A stretch of 34,559 bases of DNA from a virus. The DNA lies in IMG/VR virus record IMGVR_UViG_3300010412_000452, positions 1-34,559 of that record. One strand, 5' to 3'. The translations under genes were made by a program, and so were the position numbers. Under the pieces are notes generated by a model. The model ran no database searches. It was not told the DNA's origin and saw nothing but the letters and a program-made list of their open reading frames with translations. This document shows positions 1,068 through 24,027 of the stretch, piece by piece. Position 1 is the first letter of the stretch, and the number at the start of each line of letters is the position of its first letter.

Positions 1068-4000
1068 TCACTCGTAGATTCCCAGCATGACCCTACGCCA
1101 GAAGCTGCGGTGGTCATACGTCATGTCCATCATGTCAGCCAACTGCAACACGCCCTGCTGGAAAGCAGGATCGGTATCGAATCGGATCTTCCAATCCTGA
1201 TACAGCTCCTCGTAATACGGGTCAACTGCACGACCACGGCGGGATACCTCGGCAGCATCCGCTGCCCTGCGGATCTCCATGATTTGACCCACATACTGGT
1301 CGAAGTTGGGGATCGACTGTGTGTATCCGACGACTGTCATCCTCATTGCCGGAGTGGCCTCATACCACCACAGCTCTGACTCCCTGCCCTCCTGAACCAG
1401 GTAGTCCTTGAATGCCTGGTCGATCTCCTGCTTGCGGTCCGAGTACTCCCACTCGTCGATCTCACCACGCTCTTCGCTGGCCTTCAGGTTGCTGATCTGC
1501 TGGCTCCACTCTTCATAGAGCTTGAAGTCCTGCTCGGTAGTGGGGAGCATCTCGGCCAAGTCGGGGTGGCTCTCGGCTAGCTGAGTGGTCACAGCCTGGG
1601 ACAGCCAGGTGGTGGGCTTCAGCAGGTTCTTGATGTCCCACCTGGCCTGGTCTTCGGTGGACTTGCCCGACCGGGACCGGGTGATGAGCGATGGCATGGT
1701 CACCGCCTGTCCATCGGCGGTGAAGACGACGGGCTGGCGGTTGTAGAAGAGGTTCTCCGTATCGCGAATCTGGGCCCAGATTGCGTCCTTCTCCTCTGCG
1801 GTATGCGCATTGGCCAGTGCGTCGTACAGATCACCCTGCTGCCGGAACATGGGCTCGGCATACTCCTCGTAGTACTGGGACAGGAGGTAGTCGCGAGGGC
1901 TGTCGATGAACTGGGCGTCCTCTTCGGACAGCGCCCGGTAGTCACGCAGGAATCCTTCCACCCTGCGCAGTGCGTCCCGCTGTTCCCTGATCTCCCCGGG
2001 CGTAGCATCGGGAGCGAGGGGAGAATCGAAGAGCTCCTGGATCTCATCGATGGCATCCAACAGATCACGCTGCTTGTCCCGCATCGTGCGGTAGGCAGAG
2101 GGGAGGTACTGATCTTCCCGGTTGACGAACTGCGCCCAGTCGCCACCGATCTGCTTGTCGATGACATCGGTCGCCATGTCGGCTGCGTCGTACATCTTGA
2201 GCAGTTCCCGGTACTGATCCTGGTTGGCCAGGATGGCCCTGGCCTGCTCGATGGGGTCGGTAGTACCAAAGGTCTCTGCCAGCTGAGTCTCGAACGAGAG
2301 CACGTTGTTGGCCTTCATCTCCAGGATGAACTGGATCTCCGGCTCATAGGGGGCGATCTTGCCATCACGGATCAGATCGATCCGCTCCTCGTAGGCACGG
2401 ACTAGCGGCGGCACCCCACCCTCTCTCCAGTAGGTGGTGCCACGCAGGTAGTATTGCAGCTCGGGTAGATAGGTCTTCAGCGCCTGCTTTGCCTCGTCTC
2501 CGCTCGGATCCTCCATCCAGGCAACCAGCAGGTCGTAGTAGGTCTGGAGCTCTTCCTCTATCCGCTCGGGGTCGCCGGAGAGAACGTCGGAGAGATCCAC
2601 GTTGGTCACGTCCAGGCCCTTGACCGCACCGTGGTCGACGAAGTCGCGGGTGGCGTAGTACATGCCAGCCTGCTTCTGCTCGGTGTACATGATGCTGGGA
2701 TTGGCAGGACCGAAGAGGCCAAGCAGACCACGCATGGTGGAGTTGGTCATGGCGATGTTGACGGCATCGTTGACCAGGATCTTGTTCTGTTCGGCAATGG
2801 ACGAGTTCAGGTCTTGCCACTCCACAGAGCGTGGGTCGTCGGTGTCGATACTCGGGTCCTTGCCGTCCTTGTTCAGGGAGAGTTCGAGCTCGTCCATCTT
2901 GACGGACATCTCGATGACACGCTCGAAGCGGGACGGGGTGCCAGGGTTGGCACGAGCATCGCGTGCATACATGAACTGCATAGCACGCAGAACCTCTGCT
3001 GCCATCTGGGCACGCTGCTCTGGCGGCAGGAACGCATTGCCCAGTGAGGTGGCGAAGTCGCCATCGAAGACGATGTCGCCCGTGTCGGTGACCTCGTACG
3101 GGGCATCCTCCCCCACCACGCCAGACAGGGCGATGCCCCTGAGTAGGAACCTGCTCCATGATGGCATGAAGCTGGCACCGATGAATGCCAGTGATTCGAC
3201 TCCACCCTCCGGCCTGCCGTACGGGAAGAAGATGTCGTCGATGATCTCCTCGTACAGGTTCGACTTCGGGATCTCCAGGTTGAGCTGAGGCAGGGTGACA
3301 TCTCGCGGATCGAGCTCACCGGCCATCATCTGGTTCAGCGCCTCGGTGCCCAGGGCGATCGAGAGGGCGGGGCGGTTCTGGGTGATCAGCTGCTGGAGTG
3401 AGATCTCGTGCTGATCCGCCACTGTCTGGAGGTTGGTGTCGGGCCCCACCGGAACGAACTCGTTGCTGCCCGCCCAGTTGATCCGGGCCATCAGCTGACC
3501 GGCAGCTGCACCGGGCAGGGGACCGAGACCAACGCCCAGCTGGAGCGCAGAGCCCAGGCCCTTGGAGGTGGGGTCTACCGGCCACCCGACGGAGATGCCA
3601 AACTCCAGCTTCCCGGGGTTGGCCAGGACATCCCTCTTGTATTGATCGACAGCCTCTTGACTCATTTCGGTGAAGACATCGGAGGCAAAGATAAGCGTTG
3701 ACAGAACCACGGGGTTGGTGATCATCCAGTGCATGCCACCGCTGGCCCACTTCGCTGCCTGGTTGTTGGAGAGCAGATGCCTGCTGATACGCAGGCGCAT
3801 GCCCCTGCCCTCGGCACCCAGCGTGTCCTCCGTCTCCTCGGCCACCTCGATCAGGCCCGAGCTGACCAGCGCCCTGAGCAGGCGGTAGGACCGGGACTGG
3901 AGCTTGTACTGTCCGACGAACCAGTTGCCACCACCGAGGAACTTCGGCATCCTGTACATCCAGGCGCGGTTCACTTCGTAGAGCGCCGAGAAGAACGGGA

Positions 4001-7000
4001 ACACCTTGTTCATCTGGGCGACGATGTGAGGCACGTCCTTCATGTTGAAGTAGACATCGTTCACCCGCTGGGCTGCCAGCTGTCGGGCTACGGTGTCGGC
4101 TGCCTTCTCGTCCATCCCCACCCGAAGGAGACGAGCCTTCTCGTCGGCAAAGGTGGCGATGTAGGCGGGACGCCGGTTGAAGATCTGGGTTGACTTCTCA
4201 CCCGCATACTGGATGATGAAGTCGGCCGTGGCAGACAGCAGGTTGTCGTGAGTTCCGTCCATGGCATACCGCATGTCGAAGGGGGCAGCCACGGCAGACG
4301 GCATCCGAACCGCAGAGTTCTCGGTGACACCGGATGCCAGCTCGCCAAACGCCTCGGCCCACCGCTGGGGCCGAGCCCGGTTGTACTCGGCGGTGAACGG
4401 CACGCCGTTGAACATCGTCTCGATCCTGCCCTCATGCACGAAGCGCATGATGGTGTTGGCTGCTTCGGCAGGCCGCTGGCCGATGATCATCGGCTGCATG
4501 AGGTTGGCTACGAAGTTGTTCGCCAGGTAGTTCAGGTACCAGTCGGCCAGGGCGAAGTCATCCTCCCACTCCACCCCTGCATACCTGGCCATGGCCTCGA
4601 TGTTCTCCCGCATCCTGCCCCAGTGGTTGCCGGTGACGATACGGTGGGCAGCCGCAGGATCCACAGGCTCCTTGGCAACCAGCTCCGCATACCGCATGGT
4701 CGCCTCGCGGAAGTAGGGGTCGTCGTGGAGCTGGCCTACCTGGTGGGCCCACGCCTGGCCGAAGAGGTTCTTCTGCCTCTTCGACATCGTCGGCTCCCAC
4801 GACATGCTGTCGGAGGAGACGGCAATCTCGTTGGACAGCGTCTTGGCCCACGAAGCCTGCATGATCTCGTCGATCTCCTCGAAGGTGAAGCCATCGGGGA
4901 GCAGGTACTTCTTCAGCTTGTCCTGTACCTTGTTGTTGCGGATGACCGCACGCTTCACCGCACGGGGCGTGCTGGTTCCCAGCACCTGGGTGCTGGAGAT
5001 GTTGAGATCGACATTGCGCTTGATCCATGCACGGACGGCCCCGACCGGGATGTCCTCGATCTTCTCGATGTTGGAGAACTCGGCCAGCAGGCGTGCCCGC
5101 TGTCCCGGGAGAACCTCGTCGAGCACCCTGAGCAGGTCGTCGATGTTCTCCGTGTCGAGCATGGGGCCGAGGGTTTGCTGCACCACACGTCGCAGGTTCT
5201 GTACGTTCTTGGATGAGGCGGCAATCTGCTGCGATGCCATGGTCGCAGCTACGTACTTGAAGGGATTCCGATAGAGGGATGGCATGTCGGCCATCGCACC
5301 GCGCAGCATCTCATCCAGAACCACCACACGGGAGAACCAGGTGAACGGTCTGGCAGCCAGTTGCATCTTGGTGAACGCACGGTGCATGAAGCGGAAGCCC
5401 TGCTTCATGCCATCGCCAACGTAGTCCAAACCACGACGCCAGGCCCGGATATCGCCCTGCTCGACCAGAGCAAAGGCCATGGCCTCCAGCTCGTCTGGCT
5501 CCAGCGAGATCCCCTGCTCGTCGAGGATGTTCTTGATCTGCGCCATCTTTGCCTCACGGGCCTTGCGCACATCCCCGATGCCCTGGGAGTAGACGTTGGA
5601 CCCCGCAGCCCTGGCGGTCTTGTACCGCCTGAGCATGGTGTAGAACTCGGAGGGGGGAGCGGGGTAGTGATCGGACATCTGGCTCGGGCCGAGCGGGCGG
5701 AGCACCGTCTTGTTGTTCTTGGTGCGAGACGCAGTCCGACCCAGCGGCTCACCATCAACTGCGAATCCGAACTTCGTATTGCCAGCGGTCGAGTTGAACT
5801 CGATCATCGATGCCCGCAACACCGGGTCGTCGATCAGATCTGGTATCTGTCCGGAGAAGAGATCATTGAGGTAGTCCCACCTCTCATTGCTGGGCTTGCC
5901 CAGGTACTCCGAGATGATGGGGGCGATCTGCTCATCACGCAGGCCCATGGTTCTGAGGATGGTGGTCAGATCATCCTCACCATTGGACAGGCGAATGTAC
6001 TCCGGCGGCTCCTTGCCGAAGGCCCTGCGGATCCCCAGGCGCAGGCGATCACGGATGGGAGTGTTCCCGTACCGGGACGCCGACCAATCAGCCAGGGCCC
6101 ACCTGGCCTGGCTGGGCTTCCGGGCACGGAGGAACCCGGCTTCTCGCGGAAGCTCACGCAGTAGATAGATGCCCCTGTCCTGCTGGGCCCTCGCAGCCTG
6201 CAAGCTGGCCTGCGTCTGGACGGCCCGGGCACGGGCCTGCACCAGGTCTACGGGTGGCGACTGCTCACCACCACGAACCTTCAGCGCACGACGCTGTGCG
6301 TCCTCGGTGAGGAACACCCTGCCCCCCACGCCCTGGAACCCATCGACACCATTGCGCTTGGCCAGCTTCTCCAGGATCCGCTGCTCTCGCCTGTCGGGCA
6401 CCAGCCCGGCAGCCCAGGAGAGCGCACGCTTCACGGTGTCGGGAACCACCTCGTCGCCATACATGAGAGAGGCCAGCCCCAGCGGATCGAAGGGGATGGC
6501 AAGCTCCCTGCTGGGCACGGTTCCCGGAAGCACCGAGCCGGTGTATCCGGGATCGGGGACGGCGGGCAACATCTGCCTGCCTGGGAACTCGCGCGGTGAC
6601 ATGCCCTCAAGTCGCAGCTGCCTGCCACGGCGGGACGCCGCACCGATGTCCTGCGGTGGGGGTACCACCTCACTGCGGCGGAGATGTGCGGGGCTCGGCC
6701 TGATGTGCCTGCCGCGCTGGGTGACCTTGCCTTCCGCTGCGTACTGGGGCTTGCGGGCCAGCATGGCTGCCCTGTCCCTCACCCTTTGCGCAGCCTCGTC
6801 GTAGTAGCGGTTCTTCACCCACTGGGGGATGCGGTCGTCAGCCAGCATCTCCTTGATGAGGTTCTGTCTGGCAGCGTTGTTGCCACCCGCCTCGGAGAAG
6901 AGGCGGGCATACTCGTCGATGGCAGTGGCCTGAACCTCTGACAGGCCGGTGTCCATGCCTTCGATCCTTTGCAGGCTCACGTCTTCGGCAGACATGGCGG

Positions 7001-10000
7001 CACCGGCAGTGGTGATCTCCTCGAAGGTGCCTTCCCCGCTGGGGAGGTCGGCACTCATGCTGTAGGGGGCCTCCATCGTCTCGTCGAAGAGGCGACCGGC
7101 ATCCGCCACCTCTCCCTCACCCGAGATGGCGAGCGAGGATGCGGCACCGCGTGCCGTGGTCTGGCCAGCCTCCAGCACCACATCCTCCGAGCCGGGCAGC
7201 GGAACGATGCTGCCACGGCCGAAGGCTTGCAGTGGATCGAACCCGAGGGCCTCCGTGAGTGCGGCCCGCTTGGCCGGATCCTGAATCAGGAGGGCGGTCA
7301 CGGCACCGTACTTGCCGAGTAGGCTACGGGCCGCTTCGTTCTGCGGTTCCGCAAACTCCACATACCGGGACCCGGTGAGCGGGACCACCTGGTAGTTGGC
7401 CTTCTTCCTGTAGGGCAGGATGTAGTCGAACGCCTCGTTGAGCCCCTCGTCGATGGTGCTCTGGATCTTGGCCCCGCCCTTGTCCAGTGACTTCTCCGCC
7501 AGTCTCCTCGGGTTGACGGGAATCGAGTTCATCAGGATGGAACCGTGGCACGGCCCCTTATCTCGCTGCGGGCACCAAAGTGTCTTGCCATCAAGATTCT
7601 TGATAGCCTCCTTGAAGTCAGGGTCATTGTCCATTCTGAGCTGGACGTAGAGCCTGTACTTGTCTTCCCAGGAAGCATCGGACTGCGTCACCAACCCGGC
7701 AGTCCCGGCACCCCGCTTGATTAGCCCACGCTGCTCGGCAGCCTTGGCGATCCCGGCCCCATGGACGCCACCCAGGTTGGTGGTGATGACCGGTATGCCG
7801 GAACCGTCGAAGATGTCCCCACCCTCCACGACCTGGCTGCCAAGACCCTGCTCCTTGAGCTTGGCCACTACCTGCGTGGCAGTGCCCGGCTCACCGAGCG
7901 GCAGTCTGCCACGGGGCATCCTTGCTGCAACTTCGTCAGAGGGGATGACTAGGCGGATGTTGGGATTGTCCTGGAGGAGGTCACGCAGTCCGTCATAGAC
8001 TTTGTCCATGAACTCCTGAGTCGACAGCCCACCGTGTCCGGTGCCGGGCATGGGCATCAAGAAGGTGGACTCTGGGTTCTTCTTGGCTGTTTCCGACAGC
8101 TGAGAAAGGGAAGAGTTGATCAGCCCGGTAGACGCCTTCTCGTTCCACACCTTCTTGACCGGGAAGGTGAAGGCAACGGGCCTGCTCGGCAGCCTGCTCT
8201 CGACCTCCTCGGCCCAGAGGCGCTGCTGTTTGGTGAGGTTCTTGGCAGTGGTGCCATCGGTGTTCCACGGGTTGCCGAGGTACCCCGACTCCCCCTTGCC
8301 CCGACGACCGATGTACACATGGTCGCCAGTCGGGGGGGTCCCGCCCGTGACCACCCTGGTCTTGCCGCTCTTGGCACCGGCTCGCTTGGCGTTCTCGTTG
8401 ATCTCCTTGGCGGCCCTGGCTGCGGCCACCTCGGCATTCATCTTCGCCACATTCTCGGTGGCAGTGGGGGTGCGGCGGGCGAGGGCATACACCTCGGGGC
8501 TGTCGTACTCCTTGTTCATCTGCTTCAGCAGCCTGCGCATCATGTTGTCGATGTACTTCTGGCGGCGCTCGCCCTTGAAGCCGACAGAGTATTCAGACAG
8601 CAGAGAGCGGAACTGGAACAGCAGCTCCTGGTCGGTGAGCTCGGTGGGGTTCTTGTACAGATCCTCCAGGAAGGCGAACATCCTACGCTGAGCGTTGGCC
8701 TGCCTGACCCTCGGGCTGTTGAGCAGGTCGATGATGCCGGGGATCATCCCGGTCTCCTCGTACTGCCCATAGCTCAGGGCGGAGAGGAGCTTGTTGATCG
8801 ACTCGTTGAGGATCTCTCGGTACTGGGCTTCCTCGACCAGATCGCCCGTCTTCTTCAGCACCGTCTTGGTGCCGATCTCTTCGCCCATCCCATCCATCAC
8901 ACGGAGCGTGAGAACCGACGCCAGAGCATCGGCCTCGTCGGGATCGACGCCCCGAGCCATGAGCTCTGCGGCCACATTGTCCGCACGGTTTCCGATGTCA
9001 CGGATGAAGTTGGCAACCAGCTCATCGGCCTTGCGGTGGGTCAGCGCATCGCCGTTGTCGAGCACCGCACGAACACGGCGAACCAGATCCTCGACAGTGT
9101 TCAAGTCGTTGTCCAGGTAGCCCTGTACCGCAGCAGCCTGCACCTCGTCGAGCTGGGCCAGGGCCCTCGACAGGGTGCCGCCTACCATATCCTCGCCTGG
9201 CGTGACATCGAAGACCCAGCCACCCTCGAACGTCACCTTCCCCGTGGCCAGGGACCGCTGCTCTCCCAGCTCGACATTCCTGCCTACCGTCCCCAGGATC
9301 GCCCTCTGCATGGACGACGCCTCGCCCGGAAGCGTTTTCGCTTCGACCAGCATCTTGGGGGCTGCGTCCTCTGGCGTCCAGATCCGAATCCGACTAGTCG
9401 GAACCTTGCCCTGGACTAGCGCGCCAATGTTCGACTCATTCAACGACTCGCGGACCGTGTAGCCGAGCTTGGTTCCTTCAGGTGACTGAACCAGATCACC
9501 CTTGCGGATGGTGATGGCAACGACCTGGCCCGGCTCATCGCCCTCGCGTCCGAACAGCCAACGAAGCCGCTCCGGGTCAGAGCCCACGTAGATGCCTTCT
9601 GCGGCTGTCAGGTCTGTGGCATGTTCGCCACGCTTACGCAAACCACCCATGCCGGACGTGACATGCTCTTGGGCCCTCGCCGGTGACGTTGCGTGATAGA
9701 CTTCGATTAGCTGGTCATCTCCGAGCGTGTCCCAGACATCTCGGTGGACAGCTGCTGAAGCGGGGATGGGCGTTACCTCGACGACCTCACCTGTCTTCTT
9801 GGCGGGACCACGAGACCTGCGGTTCAGGTAGACACGCTTGTGCTTCTTGTCGGTGGGGAGCACGGCACGGGTCACGCCCAGCGGGTTCTCTGCCTCGACC
9901 CTGCCGACATCGTCGATCCTGGTCGCAACGTCGGGATCGCTGGACCCGATGATGACGCCACGCCCGAACAGGAGACCGTGGTCGTCTCCCATCTTCCCCG

Positions 10001-13000
10001 CATCCACCGTGACTTCACCGGCAAAGATCGGCTGATCCAGATCTGTCCAGTAGGTGACGGTCCCGTCGCCCGACACTCGCCTGGCACCGGAGCCGAGGTA
10101 GCTCTCGCCCCTGCCTATGTAGATCACCGGCTCACCCGGCATGCCGAGCCTGGACTGGACGGTCAGGATGTCCTGGATTCCCGCCTGCCCCTGCTCGATG
10201 ATGTTCTCAAGAACCTGATAGATCTCCTGCTCGTCCTTGCCGGTGGAGTTGGCGAGCGCCCGTGCCAGGTTGCGGATCTCGGTGAACTTGTCCAGCCCGG
10301 GGTCGTAGTTCACCGGGACGGCCACACCACGGAACACGGGGTACCCGATGCTCGCATAGAAAGCCTTCTCGATCGCCCCCTTCTGAGTGCCGATCTGCCG
10401 CTTCAGAGCGTTCAGCCCACCCTGGCGCTTGCCCCCCTCGACCCTGGGGCCCTTGACCAGCTCATCGATCTCATCGATGATCTTGCCCTTGGCTTTGCGA
10501 GTCTTGGCCGTGCCCTTCCTGGCTTCGAGCGCGGCCACCCTCTTCTCCATCTGCCAGGCACGGCGCTCCAACTTGGCAAGCTCCTCGTACCTGAAGAACA
10601 GATCATCGATGGCATTGGTGTCCAGCCGCTCCTCGTACCCGAGGGACCTGAGGATCTTGCGCCAGTATGCCAGCCGGTTCTCCCGGGACTCGGCCTGACC
10701 CACCAGCTGTGTGGTGACATACCGCCAGACAACGTCGAGGATGCCCTCCGGCTCACCAGGGTCACGCCGGATGGGGGGCAGGTTGGCGATCGACAGCTGC
10801 TCCGCCATGTCGGCAGGCCCCCGGCCTGCGAACTCCCCACCCGTATCGGGCACGAGCACCCGGCTGGGTTCGGTGGGCAGATCGTCCAGCAGCCCCTGCT
10901 CACGAAGGGCACGCTCTGCCTGTTCCATCGTGTTCTCGATGGGATCGGCAAAGCCGGTGCGATCGTCGTACCGATAGCGACGCACACGCTTGCGTGAGGT
11001 CCCGCCGGGGAACGGGAGCTGGGGCTGGCGTGGGTCGGGTGGTGTGGCCAGGTCGAGAACCTGGGCACGGGTGTGCATGCGTGGGTCGATCTCGGTGACG
11101 TTCCACTGACCGAAGGTTCTGCCCACAACGAAGCGGGCACCGGCCGTTGCCTCCCCCTCCTTGTTCAACGTGGGTGAACCAACGATGTGGCCTATCACGT
11201 TGCCTTCGTCGTCGAGCACCCGTTGGTGATAGCGGGCCCTGGCCTGGGCCAGCCTGGACGCCTTCTCCACCGGCTCCTCGGACAACCCCCTCAGCTGCTT
11301 GACGATCTTGGTGGTGTCGTCGATGTCGAGGATGTTGACACCCACCAGATACCATGCGTCTGGATCGATGGCCTCTTCTTGCGACACGATGCGGGCACTG
11401 CCGTCGGCGGTCAGCTCCAGGATCTGCCTGCCCTTGAGGTCGAGGTTCTGGACGCCGATGGTGCCAGCTGCCACATGCGCTTTCTCGATCTCGTCGAGCT
11501 GGTCGGCAGCCTGCTTCACCATGTCTTCCAGGCGAGCTCGCAGGTCGGCAGCTCCCTTGCCGCCAGGCTGGAACGCAGCCCGCAGACCAACACGGACGGT
11601 CTCCGGGTCCTCGAAGGTGATGAGCTTGAGAGCTCCGGACTTCCTGAGCTGTTCGAGGTTCTTGTACCTGCGGGTCAGCTCGTATTCGATCTGGGCCTGG
11701 TTGAGCCCTGCCTTGCGCCCGGCAGCCACCACTTCTGCGATCCCGGTGACCAGCCTGTCCACCTTCGGGGTCTGGACGAACTTGTCGACCTCTTTGGAGA
11801 ACAGGGCATAGCCGAGCCGCATGTAGGGGGCACGGGACCCGAGGGGGAGCGACTCTTTGACGAGGTTGCGCCCGAACCTCGGAACCAGCACCGCAAAGGC
11901 AGATCTGTACCGCCCCATGTTGGCAAGCTGCCCGAGCCGCGGAGTCTCTCCGGCAACCCTGGCACCCATGCCTACGCCAAAGGCGAGGTTGATCGGATCG
12001 CCGTAGAACGTGCCGAAGAAGTCCCAGGCACCCGACACCGTGGAGTAGTGATCTTCGGACGGGTCGACACCTACGGCGATGGCGAAGTTCTGTCCGGGCG
12101 TCAGGGCCCGGCGCACGGCGTAGTTGTCGGGATCGGCAATCGTCGCCCAGAGCGACGAGAAGGCACCGGACGCCAGGCGGTAGGGCGTGTCGATCGCCAC
12201 ACCCAGCGACCCGTACCAGGTCTCGTTCATCCGCTGTTCGTTCTGTGTGCTGTTCGCCTGAGCGAACAGCCAGTAGACGTACTCGTTCGTCAGGGCCTCG
12301 GACAGGAACGTGTCCGGATTGGCCTGCATGTACTCCCACGAAAGGGCAGCCACCCTGTCCCTGAAGTCGGAGGGGACGGTGGCCATCAGGTGGGCGATGA
12401 CCGGCCTGGCATAGGCGGGCATCTGGTCGCCGTACTCCTGGAAGAACTGTGCGGTGACCGGGGTCTTGTCCAGGATCCCCCTCAGCCGATCGGGGGTGAG
12501 GACATCGCCCTCCCATCCGATCTCGTCGTAGAGAGCAGACATGGCCTCGGCCGTGGCCAGCGCACCCCAGTCCGTCTTCTCGAAGTGCTGGGCCACCTCG
12601 GGCAGCAGGAAGTACGACTCGGGCCGGGCCTTCAGCATCCCTGCCAGGTACGGGTCCATGTCGTCGATCATCTGAACCACGTTGTTCACATGGTCGAGTG
12701 CCTCGTTGACCAGAGCGAAGCTGGCGGGCTGGAAAGAAGTGGGGCCGATGTCGCTCGGCTTCAGCTTGCCGTAGAACTCCTCGTAGGCCATCCGGGCAGC
12801 TGGCGTCTGGATGCTGTCCAGCCGCACCACTGTCGTCTGCCCCAGCTCGGGGAGGTTCGCCATCAGGCGAGGCATCACCTCGGTGTGGGTGCGGATGAAC
12901 CTTCTGGCGACCTCTTCGCCCAGGTAGAACTGACCACCCTCGGGATTGAGGGTGATCCTCTCCGGGTCTAGGCCAGACTCCCCCGTGTGGAGGGGCTGAA

Positions 13001-13073
13001 AGATTCTCTCCTCGGACTCCTCGGCTGCCTGTGCACCCGGGACCCTCGGACTACTGGTAGAGCCAGTCGTCAT
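1068..13073 (-). CDS. Giant 4001-residue polyvalent-type virion protein with ART-like and macro/DUF4326-like segments
   Basis: One 12-kb frame, ATG at 13073 with GAGGA about 9 nt upstream, overlapping the preceding gene by 23 bp. Segments I can point to: (a) about residues 1120-1235, an ADP-ribosyltransferase-like stretch with VYHATSPARA, then GIYVGSD and VVAITIRKGDLV; (b) about 1586-1845, VYIGR and GNPW, FPVKKVW, PMPGTGHGG, GDIF, NLGGVHGAG and finally CHG, which mix DUF4326 and macro-domain signatures; (c) about 2750-3090, helical segments including NKVFPFFSALYEVNRAW, the PFF-type patch seen in large internal virion proteins; (d) about 3205-3240, a LysM-like stretch (NLQTVADQHEISLQQLI). The remainder is mainly helical and charged. 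It occupies the slot after the portal where many siphophages carry a MuF/ART minor capsid protein. Family knowledge: large phage polyvalent proteins carry effectors that enter the host with the DNA. That this one is injected is inference. The domain calls are by eye and need profile searches. Confidence 0.75.
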   Translation of the reverse strand: MTTGSTSSPRVPGAQAAEESEERIFQPLHTGESGLDPERITLNPEGGQFYLGEEVARRFIRTHTEVMPRLMANLPELGQTTVVRLDSIQTPAARMAYEEFYGKLKPSDIGPTSFQPASFALVNEALDHVNNVVQMIDDMDPYLAGMLKARPESYFLLPEVAQHFEKTDWGALATAEAMSALYDEIGWEGDVLTPDRLRGILDKTPVTAQFFQEYGDQMPAYARPVIAHLMATVPSDFRDRVAALSWEYMQANPDTFLSEALTNEYVYWLFAQANSTQNEQRMNETWYGSLGVAIDTPYRLASGAFSSLWATIADPDNYAVRRALTPGQNFAIAVGVDPSEDHYSTVSGAWDFFGTFYGDPINLAFGVGMGARVAGETPRLGQLANMGRYRSAFAVLVPRFGRNLVKESLPLGSRAPYMRLGYALFSKEVDKFVQTPKVDRLVTGIAEVVAAGRKAGLNQAQIEYELTRRYKNLEQLRKSGALKLITFEDPETVRVGLRAAFQPGGKGAADLRARLEDMVKQAADQLDEIEKAHVAAGTIGVQNLDLKGRQILELTADGSARIVSQEEAIDPDAWYLVGVNILDIDDTTKIVKQLRGLSEEPVEKASRLAQARARYHQRVLDDEGNVIGHIVGSPTLNKEGEATAGARFVVGRTFGQWNVTEIDPRMHTRAQVLDLATPPDPRQPQLPFPGGTSRKRVRRYRYDDRTGFADPIENTMEQAERALREQGLLDDLPTEPSRVLVPDTGGEFAGRGPADMAEQLSIANLPPIRRDPGEPEGILDVVWRYVTTQLVGQAESRENRLAYWRKILRSLGYEERLDTNAIDDLFFRYEELAKLERRAWQMEKRVAALEARKGTAKTRKAKGKIIDEIDELVKGPRVEGGKRQGGLNALKRQIGTQKGAIEKAFYASIGYPVFRGVAVPVNYDPGLDKFTEIRNLARALANSTGKDEQEIYQVLENIIEQGQAGIQDILTVQSRLGMPGEPVIYIGRGESYLGSGARRVSGDGTVTYWTDLDQPIFAGEVTVDAGKMGDDHGLLFGRGVIIGSSDPDVATRIDDVGRVEAENPLGVTRAVLPTDKKHKRVYLNRRSRGPAKKTGEVVEVTPIPASAAVHRDVWDTLGDDQLIEVYHATSPARAQEHVTSGMGGLRKRGEHATDLTAAEGIYVGSDPERLRWLFGREGDEPGQVVAITIRKGDLVQSPEGTKLGYTVRESLNESNIGALVQGKVPTSRIRIWTPEDAAPKMLVEAKTLPGEASSMQRAILGTVGRNVELGEQRSLATGKVTFEGGWVFDVTPGEDMVGGTLSRALAQLDEVQAAAVQGYLDNDLNTVEDLVRRVRAVLDNGDALTHRKADELVANFIRDIGNRADNVAAELMARGVDPDEADALASVLTLRVMDGMGEEIGTKTVLKKTGDLVEEAQYREILNESINKLLSALSYGQYEETGMIPGIIDLLNSPRVRQANAQRRMFAFLEDLYKNPTELTDQELLFQFRSLLSEYSVGFKGERRQKYIDNMMRRLLKQMNKEYDSPEVYALARRTPTATENVAKMNAEVAAARAAKEINENAKRAGAKSGKTRVVTGGTPPTGDHVYIGRRGKGESGYLGNPWNTDGTTAKNLTKQQRLWAEEVESRLPSRPVAFTFPVKKVWNEKASTGLINSSLSQLSETAKKNPESTFLMPMPGTGHGGLSTQEFMDKVYDGLRDLLQDNPNIRLVIPSDEVAARMPRGRLPLGEPGTATQVVAKLKEQGLGSQVVEGGDIFDGSGIPVITTNLGGVHGAGIAKAAEQRGLIKRGAGTAGLVTQSDASWEDKYRLYVQLRMDNDPDFKEAIKNLDGKTLWCPQRDKGPCHGSILMNSIPVNPRRLAEKSLDKGGAKIQSTIDEGLNEAFDYILPYRKKANYQVVPLTGSRYVEFAEPQNEAARSLLGKYGAVTALLIQDPAKRAALTEALGFDPLQAFGRGSIVPLPGSEDVVLEAGQTTARGAASSLAISGEGEVADAGRLFDETMEAPYSMSADLPSGEGTFEEITTAGAAMSAEDVSLQRIEGMDTGLSEVQATAIDEYARLFSEAGGNNAARQNLIKEMLADDRIPQWVKNRYYDEAAQRVRDRAAMLARKPQYAAEGKVTQRGRHIRPSPAHLRRSEVVPPPQDIGAASRRGRQLRLEGMSPREFPGRQMLPAVPDPGYTGSVLPGTVPSRELAIPFDPLGLASLMYGDEVVPDTVKRALSWAAGLVPDRREQRILEKLAKRNGVDGFQGVGGRVFLTEDAQRRALKVRGGEQSPPVDLVQARARAVQTQASLQAARAQQDRGIYLLRELPREAGFLRARKPSQARWALADWSASRYGNTPIRDRLRLGIRRAFGKEPPEYIRLSNGEDDLTTILRTMGLRDEQIAPIISEYLGKPSNERWDYLNDLFSGQIPDLIDDPVLRASMIEFNSTAGNTKFGFAVDGEPLGRTASRTKNNKTVLRPLGPSQMSDHYPAPPSEFYTMLRRYKTARAAGSNVYSQGIGDVRKAREAKMAQIKNILDEQGISLEPDELEAMAFALVEQGDIRAWRRGLDYVGDGMKQGFRFMHRAFTKMQLAARPFTWFSRVVVLDEMLRGAMADMPSLYRNPFKYVAATMASQQIAASSKNVQNLRRVVQQTLGPMLDTENIDDLLRVLDEVLPGQRARLLAEFSNIEKIEDIPVGAVRAWIKRNVDLNISSTQVLGTSTPRAVKRAVIRNNKVQDKLKKYLLPDGFTFEEIDEIMQASWAKTLSNEIAVSSDSMSWEPTMSKRQKNLFGQAWAHQVGQLHDDPYFREATMRYAELVAKEPVDPAAAHRIVTGNHWGRMRENIEAMARYAGVEWEDDFALADWYLNYLANNFVANLMQPMIIGQRPAEAANTIMRFVHEGRIETMFNGVPFTAEYNRARPQRWAEAFGELASGVTENSAVRMPSAVAAPFDMRYAMDGTHDNLLSATADFIIQYAGEKSTQIFNRRPAYIATFADEKARLLRVGMDEKAADTVARQLAAQRVNDVYFNMKDVPHIVAQMNKVFPFFSALYEVNRAWMYRMPKFLGGGNWFVGQYKLQSRSYRLLRALVSSGLIEVAEETEDTLGAEGRGMRLRISRHLLSNNQAAKWASGGMHWMITNPVVLSTLIFASDVFTEMSQEAVDQYKRDVLANPGKLEFGISVGWPVDPTSKGLGSALQLGVGLGPLPGAAAGQLMARINWAGSNEFVPVGPDTNLQTVADQHEISLQQLITQNRPALSIALGTEALNQMMAGELDPRDVTLPQLNLEIPKSNLYEEIIDDIFFPYGRPEGGVESLAFIGASFMPSWSRFLLRGIALSGVVGEDAPYEVTDTGDIVFDGDFATSLGNAFLPPEQRAQMAAEVLRAMQFMYARDARANPGTPSRFERVIEMSVKMDELELSLNKDGKDPSIDTDDPRSVEWQDLNSSIAEQNKILVNDAVNIAMTNSTMRGLLGLFGPANPSIMYTEQKQAGMYYATRDFVDHGAVKGLDVTNVDLSDVLSGDPERIEEELQTYYDLLVAWMEDPSGDEAKQALKTYLPELQYYLRGTTYWREGGVPPLVRAYEERIDLIRDGKIAPYEPEIQFILEMKANNVLSFETQLAETFGTTDPIEQARAILANQDQYRELLKMYDAADMATDVIDKQIGGDWAQFVNREDQYLPSAYRTMRDKQRDLLDAIDEIQELFDSPLAPDATPGEIREQRDALRRVEGFLRDYRALSEEDAQFIDSPRDYLLSQYYEEYAEPMFRQQGDLYDALANAHTAEEKDAIWAQIRDTENLFYNRQPVVFTADGQAVTMPSLITRSRSGKSTEDQARWDIKNLLKPTTWLSQAVTTQLAESHPDLAEMLPTTEQDFKLYEEWSQQISNLKASEERGEIDEWEYSDRKQEIDQAFKDYLVQEGRESELWWYEATPAMRMTVVGYTQSIPNFDQYVGQIMEIRRAADAAEVSRRGRAVDPYYEELYQDWKIRFDTDPAFQQGVLQLADMMDMTYDHRSFWRRVMLGIYE

Positions 13074-18460: not shown

Positions 18461-18865
18461 ATGTCAACCACACCATCGTGGATCGAAGACTCCACATCCT
18501 CCCCGGCACGGAAGGCGAAGGAGTACAAGTTGGACGATATCTACGTCCAGCCTGTCTCCTCCTCCTACGCTGCCAAGGTGCTGGCTGAGCGCAAGGGCGA
18601 GTATTGGGTCAACAATCTCGCTGCTCAGGTCGTCGCCATCCTCGTCAACCAACTCATCGACCACAACCTGAAGCGCGTCACCGCCAAGGGCTGGGAGATG
18701 CTGAACGAGGTCGGCCTCGATGGCCCGGCCGCCGAGACTGCCCTCTACTGGGCCGTCGTCAACGCCTCCCGCAACATCGACATCGCCGCCAACATCCGGG
18801 GACAGATCGACCGTGAGTCCCTCTTCGACCACATGGCGAAGAGGCGAGGGGAGCGCACCAACTGA
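18461..18865 (+). CDS. First rightward gene, small protein of unknown function
   Basis: 134 residues. The ATG at 18461 has an excellent ribosome binding site (AAAGGAG) about 7 nt upstream. Residues 1-35 are polar and likely flexible; the rest is helical, with an Ala-rich segment (NLAAQVVAILVNQLIDHN, about 52-69) and AETALYWAVVNASRN (about 90-105), ending basic (MAKRRGERTN). There are no cysteines and no membrane helix long enough to call. I do not recognise the family. It has its own long, structured upstream region and a strong terminator right after the stop, so it forms a separate transcription unit. Phage genes in this arrangement are often made early and in large amounts; that is inference. 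Confidence 0.85.
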   Translation: MSTTPSWIEDSTSSPARKAKEYKLDDIYVQPVSSSYAAKVLAERKGEYWVNNLAAQVVAILVNQLIDHNLKRVTAKGWEMLNEVGLDGPAAETALYWAVVNASRNIDIAANIRGQIDRESLFDHMAKRRGERTN

Positions 18866-18896
18866 GCGAGGGGCTTCGGCCCCTTGCTCTTTTTTT
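18864..18896 (+). terminator. Strong intrinsic terminator after the first rightward gene
   Basis: Stem GAGCGAGGGGC paired with GCCCCTTGCTC (11 pairs, one G-T), loop TTCG, then seven T. It begins inside the stop region of the 18461-18865 gene. This is a textbook intrinsic terminator and isolates that gene from the following operon. Confidence 0.93.
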
Positions 18897-18953: not shown

Positions 18954-19160
18954 GTGAAGGACATGGTGTTCGCACCAGATCAGCACCGAGCAACGATCAA
19001 CGACGCAGTTCGCCAGCACGACCTGCGTCACAACTACTGCCAGCACTTCACGCTGGCACCATGGGATGTGCGACGCAACAGGCGCACGCATCCCAGCATC
19101 CAGCCCACCCACGCAGTCTGCCGTGACTGCGGCGAGATCTTCGAGGTAGACAACACATGA
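18954..19160 (+). CDS. Small His/Cys-rich protein, possible zinc binding
   Basis: 68 residues from GTG 18954, chosen because AGGA lies 8 nt upstream; ATG 18963 is the alternative and would give 65 residues. The C-terminal part carries CRDC (CxxC) and, before it, a Cys-His pair (NYCQHF) and further histidines, a pattern that could hold one zinc ion. It is first in the operon that leads to the AAA+ and VWA genes, and its TGA shares ATGA with the next start. Family unknown. Confidence 0.75.
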   Translation: MKDMVFAPDQHRATINDAVRQHDLRHNYCQHFTLAPWDVRRNRRTHPSIQPTHAVCRDCGEIFEVDNT

Positions 19161-19420
19161 CCTACGCAACCCTGTACCAGCTCAACTTCAAGGACGGGAA
19201 CACCCTGGAGTACGTGCGCGTACCCCATCACGATCCGTACTACCTCCGCACCGAGGAGGGCAAGGATCTGAAGGAGGAGTTCCCTCTCGCCCAGCTCGTC
19301 AACGATGTGCACCTCGACCATCCCCACTACCTGCGCGTCGTCAAGTCGGAGACCGACGACGTGTGGTTCAACCACAACGACATCCACAACGTGCGCACGT
19401 TCAGGACGAGGATGATCTGA
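19157..19420 (+). CDS. Small acidic protein of unknown function
   Basis: 87 residues, ATG overlapping the upstream TGA (ATGA), with GAGG about 9 nt upstream. The sequence alternates hydrophobic and charged residues with many His and Asp (PHHDPYYL, HLDHPHYLRV), suggesting a small beta-rich fold. The end (WFNHNDIHNVRTF) is typical of small phage proteins that describe no known domain. It sits in a tight operon with the downstream membrane proteins. Confidence 0.75.
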   Translation: MTYATLYQLNFKDGNTLEYVRVPHHDPYYLRTEEGKDLKEEFPLAQLVNDVHLDHPHYLRVVKSETDDVWFNHNDIHNVRTFRTRMI

Positions 19421-19569
19421 TGAGGTACCTCTTCTTCATCATCAGCGTGGTGATGGTGATCACCATGATCATCCTCATGCAGTTCTATCCGACGCCGACC
19501 CCGGTTCGCATCATCGCCAGCATCATCGGCGGGGCGTGGATCGGATCCGAATGGACGAGCAAGCCATGA
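19420..19569 (+). CDS. Small membrane protein (49 residues)
   Basis: ATG 19420-19422 overlaps the upstream TGA in a TGATG junction. Residues about 3-21 (YLFFIISVVMVITMIILMQ) form a clear membrane helix, and a second weaker hydrophobic segment follows (VRIIASIIGGAWIG, about 29-42). The protein ends at the start of the next gene (ATGA). Family unknown. It is one of three small membrane proteins in the operon with the AAA+ and VWA genes. Confidence 0.7.
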   Translation: MRYLFFIISVVMVITMIILMQFYPTPTPVRIIASIIGGAWIGSEWTSKP

Positions 19570-19781
19570 GGCTGGCGCTACCCACCGTCATCCTCATCGG
19601 ATGGTTCATCCTCGGCATGTGCGTATGGCAACTGGTGCTGGCATTCAGGGAGGAAAGGAGGAGACGCCAGTACCTCAACCAGATGTGGGTCATGTACCCA
19701 CGCCCCTGGCCCGAAGCACACAGCACCAGGCCAGAATGGGACAGCATCATCGAGAAAGGAGAACAACATGATGATGCCTGA
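19566..19781 (+). CDS. Small single-span membrane protein
   Basis: 71 residues from ATG 19566, chosen because it forms an ATGA junction with the previous gene; ATG 19551 (MDEQA) and 19536 lie further upstream in frame. Residues about 4-25 (ALPTVILIGWFILGMCVWQLVL) are a membrane helix, followed at once by a basic cluster (EERRRRQ), which by the positive-inside rule places the soluble, Trp/Pro-rich tail in the cytoplasm. Function unknown. Confidence 0.7.
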   Translation: MRLALPTVILIGWFILGMCVWQLVLAFREERRRRQYLNQMWVMYPRPWPEAHSTRPEWDSIIEKGEQHDDA

Positions 19782-20133
19782 TGACGACGCCGTGTTCGAC
19801 ATTGCAGACCGGATGACCCAAGTCATCCATGATGGCAAGACCGTCCTGCGTGACAAGATGCTGGCCGAGAGCATGTCCGCGTACATGTCTCTCATGATCT
19901 TCGCTCTGTCCATCAAGTACCCCGACATCCTCAGGGAGGAGTACTTCCAGGGACTGAGCGAGGATGCAAGGTCGTTCGTCACCGAGTTCGTCGACCTGGT
20001 CAGCGAGTCCATGGCGATCGGCGTCGCCATCGGGGCGGGCAAGGCAGAGGATCTCTACTCTGTCCTCATGCCCATCCTCGATCGCGTCGTCGAGACCGCC
20101 ATCGAACTGGGAGGAGAGATCGATGAGACCTGA
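19768..20133 (+). CDS. Small helical acidic protein of unknown function
   Basis: 121 residues. The ATG at 19768 is preceded by AAAGGAG with good spacing; two more in-frame ATGs follow immediately. The protein is acidic and almost entirely helical (IADRMTQVIHDGKTVL, AESMSAYMSLMIFALSIKY, VSESMAIGVAIGAGKAEDL). The helix around residues 38-50 is hydrophobic but broken by polar residues, so a soluble helical bundle is more likely than a membrane protein. It overlaps both neighbours by about 11-14 bases, so it is translationally coupled. No family recognised. Confidence 0.75.
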   Translation: MMMPDDDAVFDIADRMTQVIHDGKTVLRDKMLAESMSAYMSLMIFALSIKYPDILREEYFQGLSEDARSFVTEFVDLVSESMAIGVAIGAGKAEDLYSVLMPILDRVVETAIELGGEIDET

Positions 20134-20824
20134 CCCGGACGAAGCAGCCCGCGAGGACACGTACGGGATCGCCCATCGCATGGGCATGTTCTGGCCCACC
20201 GACACACCGTGGGGCCTGGACTTCAGGCAGATGGATCCCGTGCACGATGACCTCGACGAGCACATCACCGTCGCCCGGGCCCTCGACCTTGAGGGCACAT
20301 GGACTACGTTGCTCAGTAGTTTCCACATCTACTGGCGTGACGTGAACTTCCATGTCTACGGGTGGATCGGTGACAACGACGACATCATCGTCAACACTCC
20401 CACCTCTGTTCTCGAAACGCTCGAAGCACTCGGTGTCCAGATCTTGGAGACCATCGACGACGAGGACGAGGAAGGCTTCGGAGCCAGGGTGTACCCCACA
20501 CCCCGGGTTCTCGAAGAAGACAACATGACGTACCTCGCCCGCCTCTTCGACCTCGACCCCGCCACCGAGTCGGAGATGCGCAGGCAGGTACAGCATCTCA
20601 TCAACAACGCCTGGAGAGAGATGACGATCGACCACTCCACGGCAGCCGACGACCAGGAACTGTACAGCAAGCTCATCGAGCGAGCTGTCAAGAACCAACT
20701 CACGAAGGAGGAGAAGCAGGAGTTCCTGAAACTCCGTCAGCGCATGGCACAACGTGCCCAAGCACAGCGCAACCTGTCCATCAAGCCGCAGGAAGATGAC
20801 GATCTTCCTGGCTTCTACATCTGA
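20123..20824 (+). CDS. Acidic protein of unknown function upstream of the AAA+ gene
   Basis: 233 residues. ATG 20123 follows GGAGGAGA and overlaps the upstream stop by 11 bases. The N-terminal half has Trp/Tyr-rich, beta-type sequence (FHIYWRDVNFHVYGW) and a run of acidic residues (DDEDEEG, about residues 113-119). The C-terminal third is helical and basic or Gln rich (LTKEEKQEFLKLRQRMAQRAQAQ) and ends DDDLPGFYI. I recognise no domain. Its stop lies 11 bases before the AAA+ gene start, so it may be a partner of the ATPase/VWA pair; that is inference from operon position. Confidence 0.75.
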   Translation: MRPDPDEAAREDTYGIAHRMGMFWPTDTPWGLDFRQMDPVHDDLDEHITVARALDLEGTWTTLLSSFHIYWRDVNFHVYGWIGDNDDIIVNTPTSVLETLEALGVQILETIDDEDEEGFGARVYPTPRVLEEDNMTYLARLFDLDPATESEMRRQVQHLINNAWREMTIDHSTAADDQELYSKLIERAVKNQLTKEEKQEFLKLRQRMAQRAQAQRNLSIKPQEDDDLPGFYI

Positions 20825-20835
20825 GAGGAGAACCA

Positions 20836-22005
20836 TTGCCCACTGAGAGTCAGCTCCGCGACATCGCTGCGAAGCTGGGCGTCGATGCCGATCAGTTCAT
20901 CAAGGATCTGATGGGCAGTGTCCCATTCGAGGAGGAGAAGAAGGAGAAGGAGGTGATCGTCTTCGACGACAGCCTCGAAGTCCCCTTCCACAAGCTGCTC
21001 CGCCCCGGACCGTTCGCCCCCAACTGGTCGTTTCGTGACGAGTATGGTCGCCTGATCAAGAGCTTCCCCACCAAGAACGAAGCACTCGGTTGCTTGATGG
21101 ACAGGACGTGGTCGCACCATCTGGGTGGCGACATCGTCCACAAGATCTTCATCGAGGCCGACCCCGAGAATCCGTACGACACCGTCGGTGGTACGTATGA
21201 GCAGATCGAAGTGCTCAAGCACCACGCATCACTCGACACGAGCAAGCACGAAGACCCCGAGACAGAGGAGACCATCACAGTGACTGATCACATTCCGTCA
21301 GACGTTCTGGAGTTCGCTGATGAAGATGCCCTTCATCAGTGGGAGTTGGCCAATGCGGTCATCCCCCACTCCCGCCGCGTCCTGTTCTACGGCCCGCCCT
21401 CCACTGGCAAGACCTACTTCGCCAACACCGTGGGCGGCGTGACCAAGGACGACATCTACTCGGTCACCCTGACCGAGGAGACCAGCGCCGCCGAGATCCG
21501 TGGCCACTTCATCAACCGTGGATCCGACACGGTGTGGCACTACGGACCCGGGGCTCGAGCCTGGCTGGAGGGCAAGCGGTTCGTCATCAACGAGATCGAC
21601 CGTGCCAGTGCCGACGCACTCACCCTGCTGTACGCACTGCTCGACGATCCGATGTTCGCCAGCCTCACGCTGCCGAACGGTGAGACGATCCGCCCGGAGG
21701 AGGGCTTCGCCGTCGTGGCCACCATGAACGGCGTGCCCGAGGATCTGCCCGAGGCACTCCAGTCCAGGTTCCCCGTCAAGTTCGGTGTCAACAAGCCGAA
21801 CCCGGCTGCCATCGCCGCACTCGACAAGGACTTGCGCAAGCTGGCGTCCGGCCTGTCCATCAGGAGGGACGAGAACCGTCAGGATCTCCGTGCCTTCTTC
21901 GAGTTCCAGTCCCTTCGCAAGTTCGTGTCCGTGGATCTGGCCGGTGAGGCCGTGTTCGCAGACCAGTGGCCGAGCATCAAGGCAACCCTCACGCTGGGTA
22001 GCTGA
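20836..22005 (+). CDS. MoxR/CobS-like AAA+ ATPase
   Basis: 389 residues from a TTG start with AGAGGAG 7 nt upstream. Residues 1-150 are an N-terminal extension of unknown fold. The AAA+ module follows: Walker A GPPSTGKT (186-193), Walker B FVINEID (249-255), sensor-1 VVATMN (293-298) and an arginine-finger candidate in LQSRFP (about 313). NEID together with the GPGA-containing insert (WHYGPGARAWLEG) resembles the MoxR/CobS group of chaperone-like ATPases. These act with a VWA-domain partner to remodel or insert metal into target proteins. The VWA gene follows after 2 bases. The target in this phage is unknown; a cobalamin role is not implied, since no cobaltochelatase large subunit is nearby. 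Confidence 0.9.
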   Translation: MPTESQLRDIAAKLGVDADQFIKDLMGSVPFEEEKKEKEVIVFDDSLEVPFHKLLRPGPFAPNWSFRDEYGRLIKSFPTKNEALGCLMDRTWSHHLGGDIVHKIFIEADPENPYDTVGGTYEQIEVLKHHASLDTSKHEDPETEETITVTDHIPSDVLEFADEDALHQWELANAVIPHSRRVLFYGPPSTGKTYFANTVGGVTKDDIYSVTLTEETSAAEIRGHFINRGSDTVWHYGPGARAWLEGKRFVINEIDRASADALTLLYALLDDPMFASLTLPNGETIRPEEGFAVVATMNGVPEDLPEALQSRFPVKFGVNKPNPAAIAALDKDLRKLASGLSIRRDENRQDLRAFFEFQSLRKFVSVDLAGEAVFADQWPSIKATLTLGS

Positions 22006-22007
22006 TC

Positions 22008-23720
22008 ATGCGCACCGGCCCATCCTTCCATCCGGAAGGGCTGGATGGCAGAGAGTGGGAGTACCACGATGGCGTGATGCCCAAGCTCGACAAGCGAGGG
22101 CGCAAGTTCACCCATCTGGGTAAGATCCGTGGAGCCTGCCCGACCTGCGGCAAGGATCACACGATCATGCGTGAGCTGTCCAGCGTACGCGCTGCCAACC
22201 TCAAGCGACTGAAGCGTCACCCCTATCGGGATGTGTGCGCTCAGTTCATGGTTGAGAAGCTCATCGCCCAGAAGGATGACACCCTGTCTGCCACATGTGA
22301 TCCCGACATCGAGTTCCTCGCACAGATGCGCAGGTACACAGATGCCAGGGATCAGGTGGTGGTCAACCACAACCTGCGTTCAGCCATCAGCCCAGCAATC
22401 GCAGACATCCTCGACAACCCCTGGTTCGGCAAGCACCTCGTCTCTATCGGGCGTGCCGAATACGAGAAGAAGCACGGCAAGACGCCTCGCTTCAGGGGGA
22501 ACCACCTGGGACAGAAGTTGTTCGATGACTTCTTCATCCCATCCATCAAGGATGTCTTCGCCAAGACCAATCCCCATCTCAGTGAGGAGGTGATCGACGA
22601 AACAGTTCGCAAGTTCTGCGATCGACTGCCGCCAGAACTTCATCAGTTCCGCAACAAGTGGACGACCCTCGGTGCCTACCTGTACAATCAGGTCAGCCTG
22701 CCCTGGGGCGTCAGCGTTGATGGTGAGAACAAGGTCTTGGCACGAGAGGCCAACGAGCTCATGCTCTCCATCGACGATGCAGTCGAGACCATCGAGCCAG
22801 CACTTGCCTGGTTCGAGGCATTCATGGACACGCCGACCAAGGATCGTGGCCGACCGTCCGAAGGTACCACCGATGACGACGAGGATGATGACGGGGAATA
22901 CGAAGATGATGCGGACACCGCAGAGCGGCTGGCCGATGACATGCTTCGCAAGGATCCCCGTGAGATGGGCGATCGATTCCGCAAGCGCGGTACGCCCATG
23001 CCTCCCGTCAAGGATCCGGAACTGAAGGACAAGATCGAGACGATCAAGAAGGGTGAAGCCCAGGTCCGCTGGAATCAGATGGACATCGTCAAGCACTCCT
23101 TCACATCCCAGGCACCAGCCTGGAAGGTGCAGCGTGGCAAGAACAGAAGCCAGGAGGAGGGAGTGATCCCTCGCAGGTTCGAGCGTCTCGCCTCGGACCA
23201 GAGGATCTACACCCACAAGATCCGGGTGCCATCAGTCAGTGTGCTGATCGATGCATCCGGATCCATGGATGTCAACGCAGAAGACATCCGTCGCATCGTT
23301 GACATGCTTCCTGGTTCTACGATCGGTTCGTATGCTGGATGGGATCATGACCCCACCCTCACCAGAGTGGGCAAGCTCTACGTCATTGCCGAGCGTGGCA
23401 AGATGGTGAACCTCACCATCGACGACCACCTCCAGCCTTCTCTGCATGGCAATGGCGTCGACTACCCTGCCCTCCAGTGGCTGGCCGAACAGCCAGGCCC
23501 CAGGCTCTGGGTATCGGATGGTGGTGTCACCGTCTCTCGCAACTACGGTGCGGGCAACCTGCCATACAAGCAGTGTGTCGCACTCTGCGAACTGGCAGGC
23601 ATCGAGCGTGTGCACCACACGTACGACGCCATCGAACTGATCATCAAGCGCAAGCGGGAGTCTGACTGGAAACAGCCGAGACTTCCCGTCTACCGCAGGA
23701 ACTGGCGAGTCTATCGATGA
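22008..23720 (+). CDS. CobT-like protein with C-terminal VWA (MIDAS) domain
   Basis: 570 residues. The start lies 2 bases after the AAA+ stop. Near the N-terminus is CPTC (about residues 44-47), a possible half zinc site. A long helical middle is followed by a strongly acidic linker (TTDDDEDDDGEYEDD, about 286-300), typical of CobT-type proteins. The VWA domain starts near residue 405: SVLIDASGSMD carries the MIDAS motif DxSxS at 415-419, and a later acidic site is in VSDGG (D504). Such proteins use the metal-dependent VWA domain to bind substrates and present them to a MoxR/CobS ATPase. Its C-terminus (RRNWRVYR) is basic. The TGA forms an ATGA junction with the next gene. Confidence 0.88.
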   Translation: MRTGPSFHPEGLDGREWEYHDGVMPKLDKRGRKFTHLGKIRGACPTCGKDHTIMRELSSVRAANLKRLKRHPYRDVCAQFMVEKLIAQKDDTLSATCDPDIEFLAQMRRYTDARDQVVVNHNLRSAISPAIADILDNPWFGKHLVSIGRAEYEKKHGKTPRFRGNHLGQKLFDDFFIPSIKDVFAKTNPHLSEEVIDETVRKFCDRLPPELHQFRNKWTTLGAYLYNQVSLPWGVSVDGENKVLAREANELMLSIDDAVETIEPALAWFEAFMDTPTKDRGRPSEGTTDDDEDDDGEYEDDADTAERLADDMLRKDPREMGDRFRKRGTPMPPVKDPELKDKIETIKKGEAQVRWNQMDIVKHSFTSQAPAWKVQRGKNRSQEEGVIPRRFERLASDQRIYTHKIRVPSVSVLIDASGSMDVNAEDIRRIVDMLPGSTIGSYAGWDHDPTLTRVGKLYVIAERGKMVNLTIDDHLQPSLHGNGVDYPALQWLAEQPGPRLWVSDGGVTVSRNYGAGNLPYKQCVALCELAGIERVHHTYDAIELIIKRKRESDWKQPRLPVYRRNWRVYR

Positions 23721-23971
23721 TTCGCTGGTTCGGTATCGCTGTTGTTCTGATCGGGATCGTGTTCGCACTGATCATGTTCATGAACAGCATCGACTACCTG
23801 TACAGCGGGGAGTTCAGTACACGGAGCTTCCTCTGGGGGATGGCGTCACTGACCACATGGACGATGCTCATGTACCTTGAGCCATCGGGCTACATGTGGG
23901 CAGTAGCCTTCCCCATCCTCGCCAGCTGGATCAGCATCTACTACTTCGTCAAGGAGAAAGGAGTCTTCTAG
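23717..23971 (+). CDS. Small three-helix membrane protein at the end of the AAA+/VWA operon
   Basis: 84 residues, ATG overlapping the VWA stop (ATGA). Three hydrophobic segments: about 3-23 (RWFGIAVVLIGIVFALIMFM), about 38-53 (FLWGMASLTTWTMLMY) and about 59-77 (YMWAVAFPILASWISIYYF), ending in the basic KEKGVF. Last gene before a strong terminator. Its coupling to the VWA gene suggests, without proof, that the ATPase/VWA pair works at or near the membrane. Confidence 0.8.
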   Translation: MIRWFGIAVVLIGIVFALIMFMNSIDYLYSGEFSTRSFLWGMASLTTWTMLMYLEPSGYMWAVAFPILASWISIYYFVKEKGVF

Positions 23972-23974
23972 AAG

Positions 23975-24017
23975 AGAGGGATCTCACCCATCCAGGGTGA
24001 GGTCCCTCTTTTTTTTT
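23975..24017 (+). terminator. Strong intrinsic terminator closing the AAA+/VWA operon
   Basis: Stem AGAGGGATCTCACCC paired with GGGTGAGGTCCCTCT (15 pairs, one T-G), 5-base loop ATCCA, then nine T. It begins 4 bases after the stop of the membrane protein gene. Confidence 0.95.
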
Positions 24018-24027
24018 GATGACACAG

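Follow-up and report, generated by a model that had tools for sequence, protein, structure and literature searches.

Insertion of metal into nitric oxide reductase is driven, in the NorQ/NorD system, by a hexamer that acts on a linker in NorD (PMC13036017, PMC9976466). NorD consists of an N-terminal region, a linker and a C-terminal VWA domain (PMC9976466, PMC13036017), and its MIDAS threonine is essential (PMC9976466). Viruses carry pairs of the same general kind. AAA/VWA pairs have been described as CobST in tailed viruses of eight host orders (PMC8651126); jumbo phages of group 2.2 encode a MoxR-vWA pair in which the VWA protein is fused to a metallopeptidase, and a role in virion assembly was proposed for it (PMC7824862); and a further AAA/VWA pair has been published for Hardycor1 (PMC7911831). 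Phage AAA/VWA pairs are widespread and often annotated as cobalamin genes, and we found no experimental test of the function of such a pair in the phages examined. A sequence-only reading of the locus studied here had proposed an undescribed functional system; since phage and archaeal-virus AAA/VWA pairs are already in print (PMC7824862, PMC8651126, PMC7911831), that description no longer holds.

The window, by which we mean the whole stretch of DNA analysed, is a virus record of 34,559 bases. Between positions 18954 and 23971 it contains nine co-directional plus-strand ORFs (g1 to g9; Table 1), which overlap by 1-14 nt or are separated by gaps of 2-11 nt. Their third-position GC (0.72-0.90) falls in the range expected of coding sequence in the window, the weakest codon scores being those of g1 and g4. 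Together with the folding energies of the two flanking terminators, these features agree with the earlier description of nine tightly packed genes between two strong terminators. We found no sigma-70-like promoter in the short gap between the first terminator and g1. The genes for TerL (the large terminase subunit) and the portal lie upstream of the operon on the opposite strand, and those for an exonuclease, a DnaB-like helicase, a primase and a polymerase exonuclease subunit lie downstream on the same strand. Tight, overlapping packing is ordinary for phages, and only the ATPase/VWA pair goes beyond chance. Two further features of the record were observed. A lone plus-strand gene of 134 aa (18461-18865), with a good ribosome site and no family match, stands directly before the first terminator. 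Beside the portal region, a minus-strand ORF of 4001 aa (1068-13073) accounts for over a third of the record; it has a DUF4326 match at 1804-1848 that is barely above the cut-off, and a scan without PHROGs revealed neither a capsid nor a tail family in it.

Table 1. Features of the operon and its boundaries (positions are those of the window).
Feature	Position	Strand	Length (aa)	Remarks
Intrinsic terminator 5' of operon	18864..18896	+		11-bp stem, U7 tail; -23.5 kcal/mol, z -5.0
g1	18954..19160	+	68	GTG start; 3 Cys + 6 His; lineage-specific; no homologue in fetched loci or G246
g2	19157..19420	+	87	
g3	19420..19569	+	49	single hydrophobic segment, hydropathy 2.73 over 19 residues
g4	19566..19781 (or from 19551)	+	71	single hydrophobic segment near N terminus, hydropathy 2.33
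g5	19768..20133	+	121	
g6	20123..20824	+	233	in slot directly upstream of ATPase
g7	20836..22005	+	389	AAA_5 ATPase (NorQ/CbbQ-like); TTG start, GAGGAG
g8	22008..23720	+	570	VWA protein
g9	23717..23971	+	84	two hydrophobic segments
Intrinsic terminator 3' of operon	23969..24019 (stretch folded)	+		20-bp stem, U9 run; -34.4 kcal/mol, z -6.3

The product of g7 matches the Pfam family AAA_5 (1.8e-16) and carries an N-terminal extension (about residues 1-165) before the AAA domain; the sequence-only reading had correctly recognised a MoxR-type ATPase with a long extension, which it put at 150 residues. The extension is absent from relatives, because their ATPase ORFs, one truncated ORF aside, span only 201-296 aa. 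The idea that the extension derives from the gene preceding the ATPase in relatives, fused to it, was rejected, as profile comparison found no similarity to the three upstream families. When the ATPase profile was compared with known families, midasin scored highest, followed by NorQ (2e-16), CbbQ (6e-13) and CobS (6e-7). Similarly, the ATPase model (pLDDT 72) found NorQ as its best Foldseek match (1.3e-15) and then CbbQ2 (2e-13). Compared directly, g7 had no match to CobS (TIGR01650) at E 0.1, one relative matching CobS at 0.005, far under the cut-off; its score against bpMoxR (E 0.08, 12.4 bits against 27) was also under the cut-off. The Walker A Lys, Walker B Glu, sensor-1 Asn, Arg finger and sensor-2 Arg are present in 66 of 66 aligned sequences. 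The Walker B Asp is replaced by Asn in 51 of the 66 ATPases (in g7 at residue 252, window 21589-21591), next to an invariant catalytic Glu, E253 of g7. By its sequence and predicted fold, g7 resembles a MoxR motor of the NorQ/CbbQ type, with its catalytic positions kept save for this Asp-to-Asn change. An internal GTG start with a Shine-Dalgarno sequence at residue 149, which might have given a domain-only form of g7, was dismissed, since the long genes of the record contain a site of this sort roughly every 670 codons.

The g8 protein is predicted to begin with a mostly helical N-terminal region (low confidence), followed by an acidic linker (about residues 288-312) and a C-terminal VWA domain (about 400-550). 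D415, S417 and S419 (DxSGS), N482, D485 and D504 are invariant in 66 sequences. No Pfam or NCBIfam family, CobT included, matched g8. Of the earlier label of a CobT-like VWA protein, therefore, the VWA part stands, on the invariant DxSGS, and membership of the CobT family was not confirmed. The full MIDAS pattern of a VWA domain, DxSxS-T-D, fails in g8: the DxSxS and the final Asp are invariant, and the Thr position is not conserved, being G in g8 and S, G, N, L, I or Y in relatives (this position was aligned by eye with the GGT of phage CobT-like proteins). The structural model of g8 is poor (pLDDT 44.5), and even the top fold match in the PDB is marginal (E 0.011). HExxH, found near the N terminus of 11 of 66 relatives, is absent from g8. 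Two candidate features of g8 were rejected. A degenerate metallopeptidase at its N terminus is unsupported, as a profile of this region from the HExxH-bearing relatives scores g8 at background; and an internal GTG start with a Shine-Dalgarno sequence at residue 386, which would give a domain-only form, is confined, among 66 sequences, to that of the window. Judged from the aligned sequences, both genes of the pair are under strong constraint across phages.

Compared with NorQ/NorD and CbbQ/CbbO, the g7/g8 pair shares the ATPase fold and profile, the adjacency of the two genes, and the order of N-terminal region, linker and C-terminal VWA domain in the partner. It differs in that g8 lacks the MIDAS Thr and g7 carries the Walker B Asp-to-Asn change, and in that g7 has its additional 165-residue extension, while the N-terminal region of g8 is unrelated by sequence. 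In addition, the C-terminal VWA region of g8 seems not long enough for a pore "finger" like that of NorD. Neither norCB, rubisco nor any other known client gene was recognised among the window genes scanned. Cultured phages also carry CobST-like pairs: Gordonia phages Schomber (gp70/71) and DalanDe (gp68/69), Brevibacterium phage Cantare (gp55/56), and DSL-LC01. These share with the window an AAA_5 ATPase followed at once by a large VWA protein. However, their VWA proteins bear an N-terminal HExxH that g8 lacks, three of the four have GGT at the expected MIDAS Thr (read by eye), and their sequence similarity to g8 is unconvincing. The jumbo-phage system likewise pairs a MoxR ATPase with a VWA cochaperone, but the latter is a metallopeptidase fusion and g8 is without HExxH. 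The best PHROG matches were to unnamed phage families: phrog_16448 (ATPase) for g7 (6e-35, AAA region only) and phrog_33218 (unknown) for g8 (2.2e-15, VWA region only).

To gather relatives, we used both single proteins and alignments as queries against viral contigs. With a small number of loci from genomes and isolated phages included, the set came to 167 loci, selected by a match to either gene of the pair. The ATPase and VWA genes are adjacent, on the same strand and in the same order in 139 of the 167 loci, a figure that describes pairing and not prevalence, because loci were selected by a match to one pair gene and some share a contig. At 90% VWA identity, 68 loci are distinct, and the ATPase lies directly upstream of the VWA gene in 65 of them. 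An exonuclease-like gene follows the pair in most relatives. Another, larger phage group carries the pair with a gene of about 172 aa upstream, and with a 90-aa gene and an exonuclease-like phosphoesterase downstream; by these kept neighbours, the pair seems to belong stably to the genome in that group. A search of isolated phages with the DNA directly or with the VWA protein gave no match. Of 198 genomes from the phylum of a metagenome-assembled genome (MAG) with a related contig, the VWA profile matched that MAG alone. Contig PBPX01000045.1 (loci L025 and L026; Actinomycetota MAG RS345) bears the pair and looks like a phage genome; its sequence starts again, 99.985% identical, after 43,859 bases. 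Two other arrangements were seen in isolated phages. In Microbacterium phage Cece (L032, 4929-9412), a related AAA-ATPase directly precedes rIIA-like and rIIB-like genes, and no VWA gene is present there. In Gordonia phage GodonK (L174, 3173-7792), one gene lies between the ATPase and a protein that bears both HExxH and a VWA-like DVSGS motif.

A TerL-anchored scan identified the closest relative of the window, G246 (L256-L258; 42,445 bases). Its TerL, portal and next gene are 40%, 48% and 43% identical to those of the window, and the collinearity extends to the exonuclease, DnaB, the primase, several small genes and parts of the giant 4001-aa protein. Because the DnaB gene is split across the ends of the record, G246 is apparently a complete circular map. 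We searched all of G246 for the pair and for each of g1 to g9 and found none; the interval between exonuclease and TerL contains other small ORFs instead of the operon. The absence of the whole block from G246 indicates that the block is accessory in the window's phage lineage.

The genes around the pair are not shared with relatives. No homologue of g1-g6 or g9 was found in the 167 loci (tblastn, E < 0.01), and profile comparison of the window genes with the neighbour families of relatives revealed no cryptic homology. As the sequence-only reading had noted, the operon does encode a small Cys/His-rich protein (g1) and three small membrane proteins, strong hydrophobic segments being evident by hydropathy in each of g3, g4 and g9. 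In 61 assessable loci, we found no small membrane protein within five genes upstream of the pair or directly downstream of it. The slot upstream of the ATPase is occupied in relatives by one of three families, among which we found no mutual similarity. Two proposals for g6 are unsupported (profile comparison, probability 25%): kinship with these upstream genes and a relationship to TerL (a weak match around residues 61-125).

Starting from the observed gene anatomy, the conservation of the pair, its catalytic positions, the likeness to NorQ and the absence of the other genes from relatives, we propose that g7 and g8 constitute a phage AAA+ motor and a VWA adaptor that would work, by analogy, like NorQ/NorD and CbbQ/CbbO. 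We assign this reading a probability of roughly 0.6. The core of the operon is a divergent, phage-borne MoxR-type AAA+/VWA pair that probably remodels protein and acts early. According to this model, g7 would form a hexamer; g8 would dock on it through its VWA domain and keep hold of a client protein with its N-terminal region. ATP hydrolysis would then pull or twist by way of the acidic linker, and the client would be remodelled. Strand and neighbours suggest that the pair is expressed with the early and replication genes, and this shared transcription would make an early phage protein or a protein of the host the probable client, in preference to a late structural one. As part of the same explanation, the other seven genes are best regarded as lineage-specific small phage genes that share a transcript with the pair.

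Other explanations must be weighed against this one. The pair could be a virion-assembly chaperone that assists the folding or processing of proteins of the tail or head, in the manner proposed for the jumbo-phage MoxR-vWA and for Acidianus two-tailed virus; this role has both an explicit proposal and a precedent (PMC7824862), and many tailed phages have the pair. In the window, however, the pair lies beside replication genes, and TerL and portal are encoded on the other strand. Moreover, G246 has a homologous TerL, portal and giant virion-region protein but no pair, and those parts are therefore independent of it. We consider a role in assembly unlikely, if worth keeping in view. An assignment of the pair as CobST-like cobaltochelatase subunits, which would borrow the host's CobN and so supply more cobalamin for nucleotide synthesis, follows a proposal made for viral cobST (PMC8651126) and accords with the annotation of distant relatives as CobS/CobT. 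This we judge improbable: g8 has no CobT family match, the ATPase profile is closer to NorQ and CbbQ than to CobS, CobN occurs in 0 of 47 related records (a host may still supply it), and a domain of the ribonucleotide reductase (RNR) large subunit occurs in just 4 of the 47 and not on PBPX01000045.1.

A function in counter-defence or host take-over, through which the pair would take apart or modify a host complex, seems to us no more probable than the cobaltochelatase. The pair is accessory in the window's lineage, being missing from the collinear G246, and g7 has a weak local similarity to IetA defence ATPases; that match, however, is confined to about 60 residues around the P-loop, and a PADLOC search gave weak P-loop matches only, with none for the VWA protein or the small proteins. 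On this search and the low bpMoxR score, the pair does not qualify as a MoxR-VWA conflict system of the BREX or bpMoxR ternary type. The stable gene order of the pair in another large phage group is likewise unlike that of a rapidly exchanged counter-defence gene. It is more doubtful still that the pair has acquired a new target in this lineage, with the 165-residue extension and the co-transcribed membrane proteins bringing it to the cell membrane, where a host complex would be dismantled or rebuilt during infection; the sequence-only reading had suggested action at the host membrane, and we found nothing in support of it. Least probable of all, in our estimation, is that the nine genes make up one membrane-linked system. 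They do share an operon with terminator bounds, but the seven other genes have no homologue in 167 loci, 61 loci have no small membrane protein near the pair, and profile comparison uncovered no hidden relationship. The sequence-only reading had named relatives that carry the pair without its neighbours as the observation that would count against a nine-gene system. Such relatives are what we found: the pair alone is shared, and we reject the nine-gene system on that ground.

We return to the reading of g7/g8 as a motor and adaptor of the NorQ/NorD kind. The family that they represent is carried by small phages in which neither CobN nor, save for an RNR domain in 4 of 47 records, ribonucleotide reductase was detected, and its VWA protein belongs to none of the families in present libraries. 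An ATPase nearer to NorQ and CbbQ than to CobS, a VWA protein outside the libraries and the lack of detected CobN or ribonucleotide reductase argue against the default label of "CobST" and point to protein remodelling. Finally, the existence of cultured Gordonia phages with an analogous pair makes this function testable.
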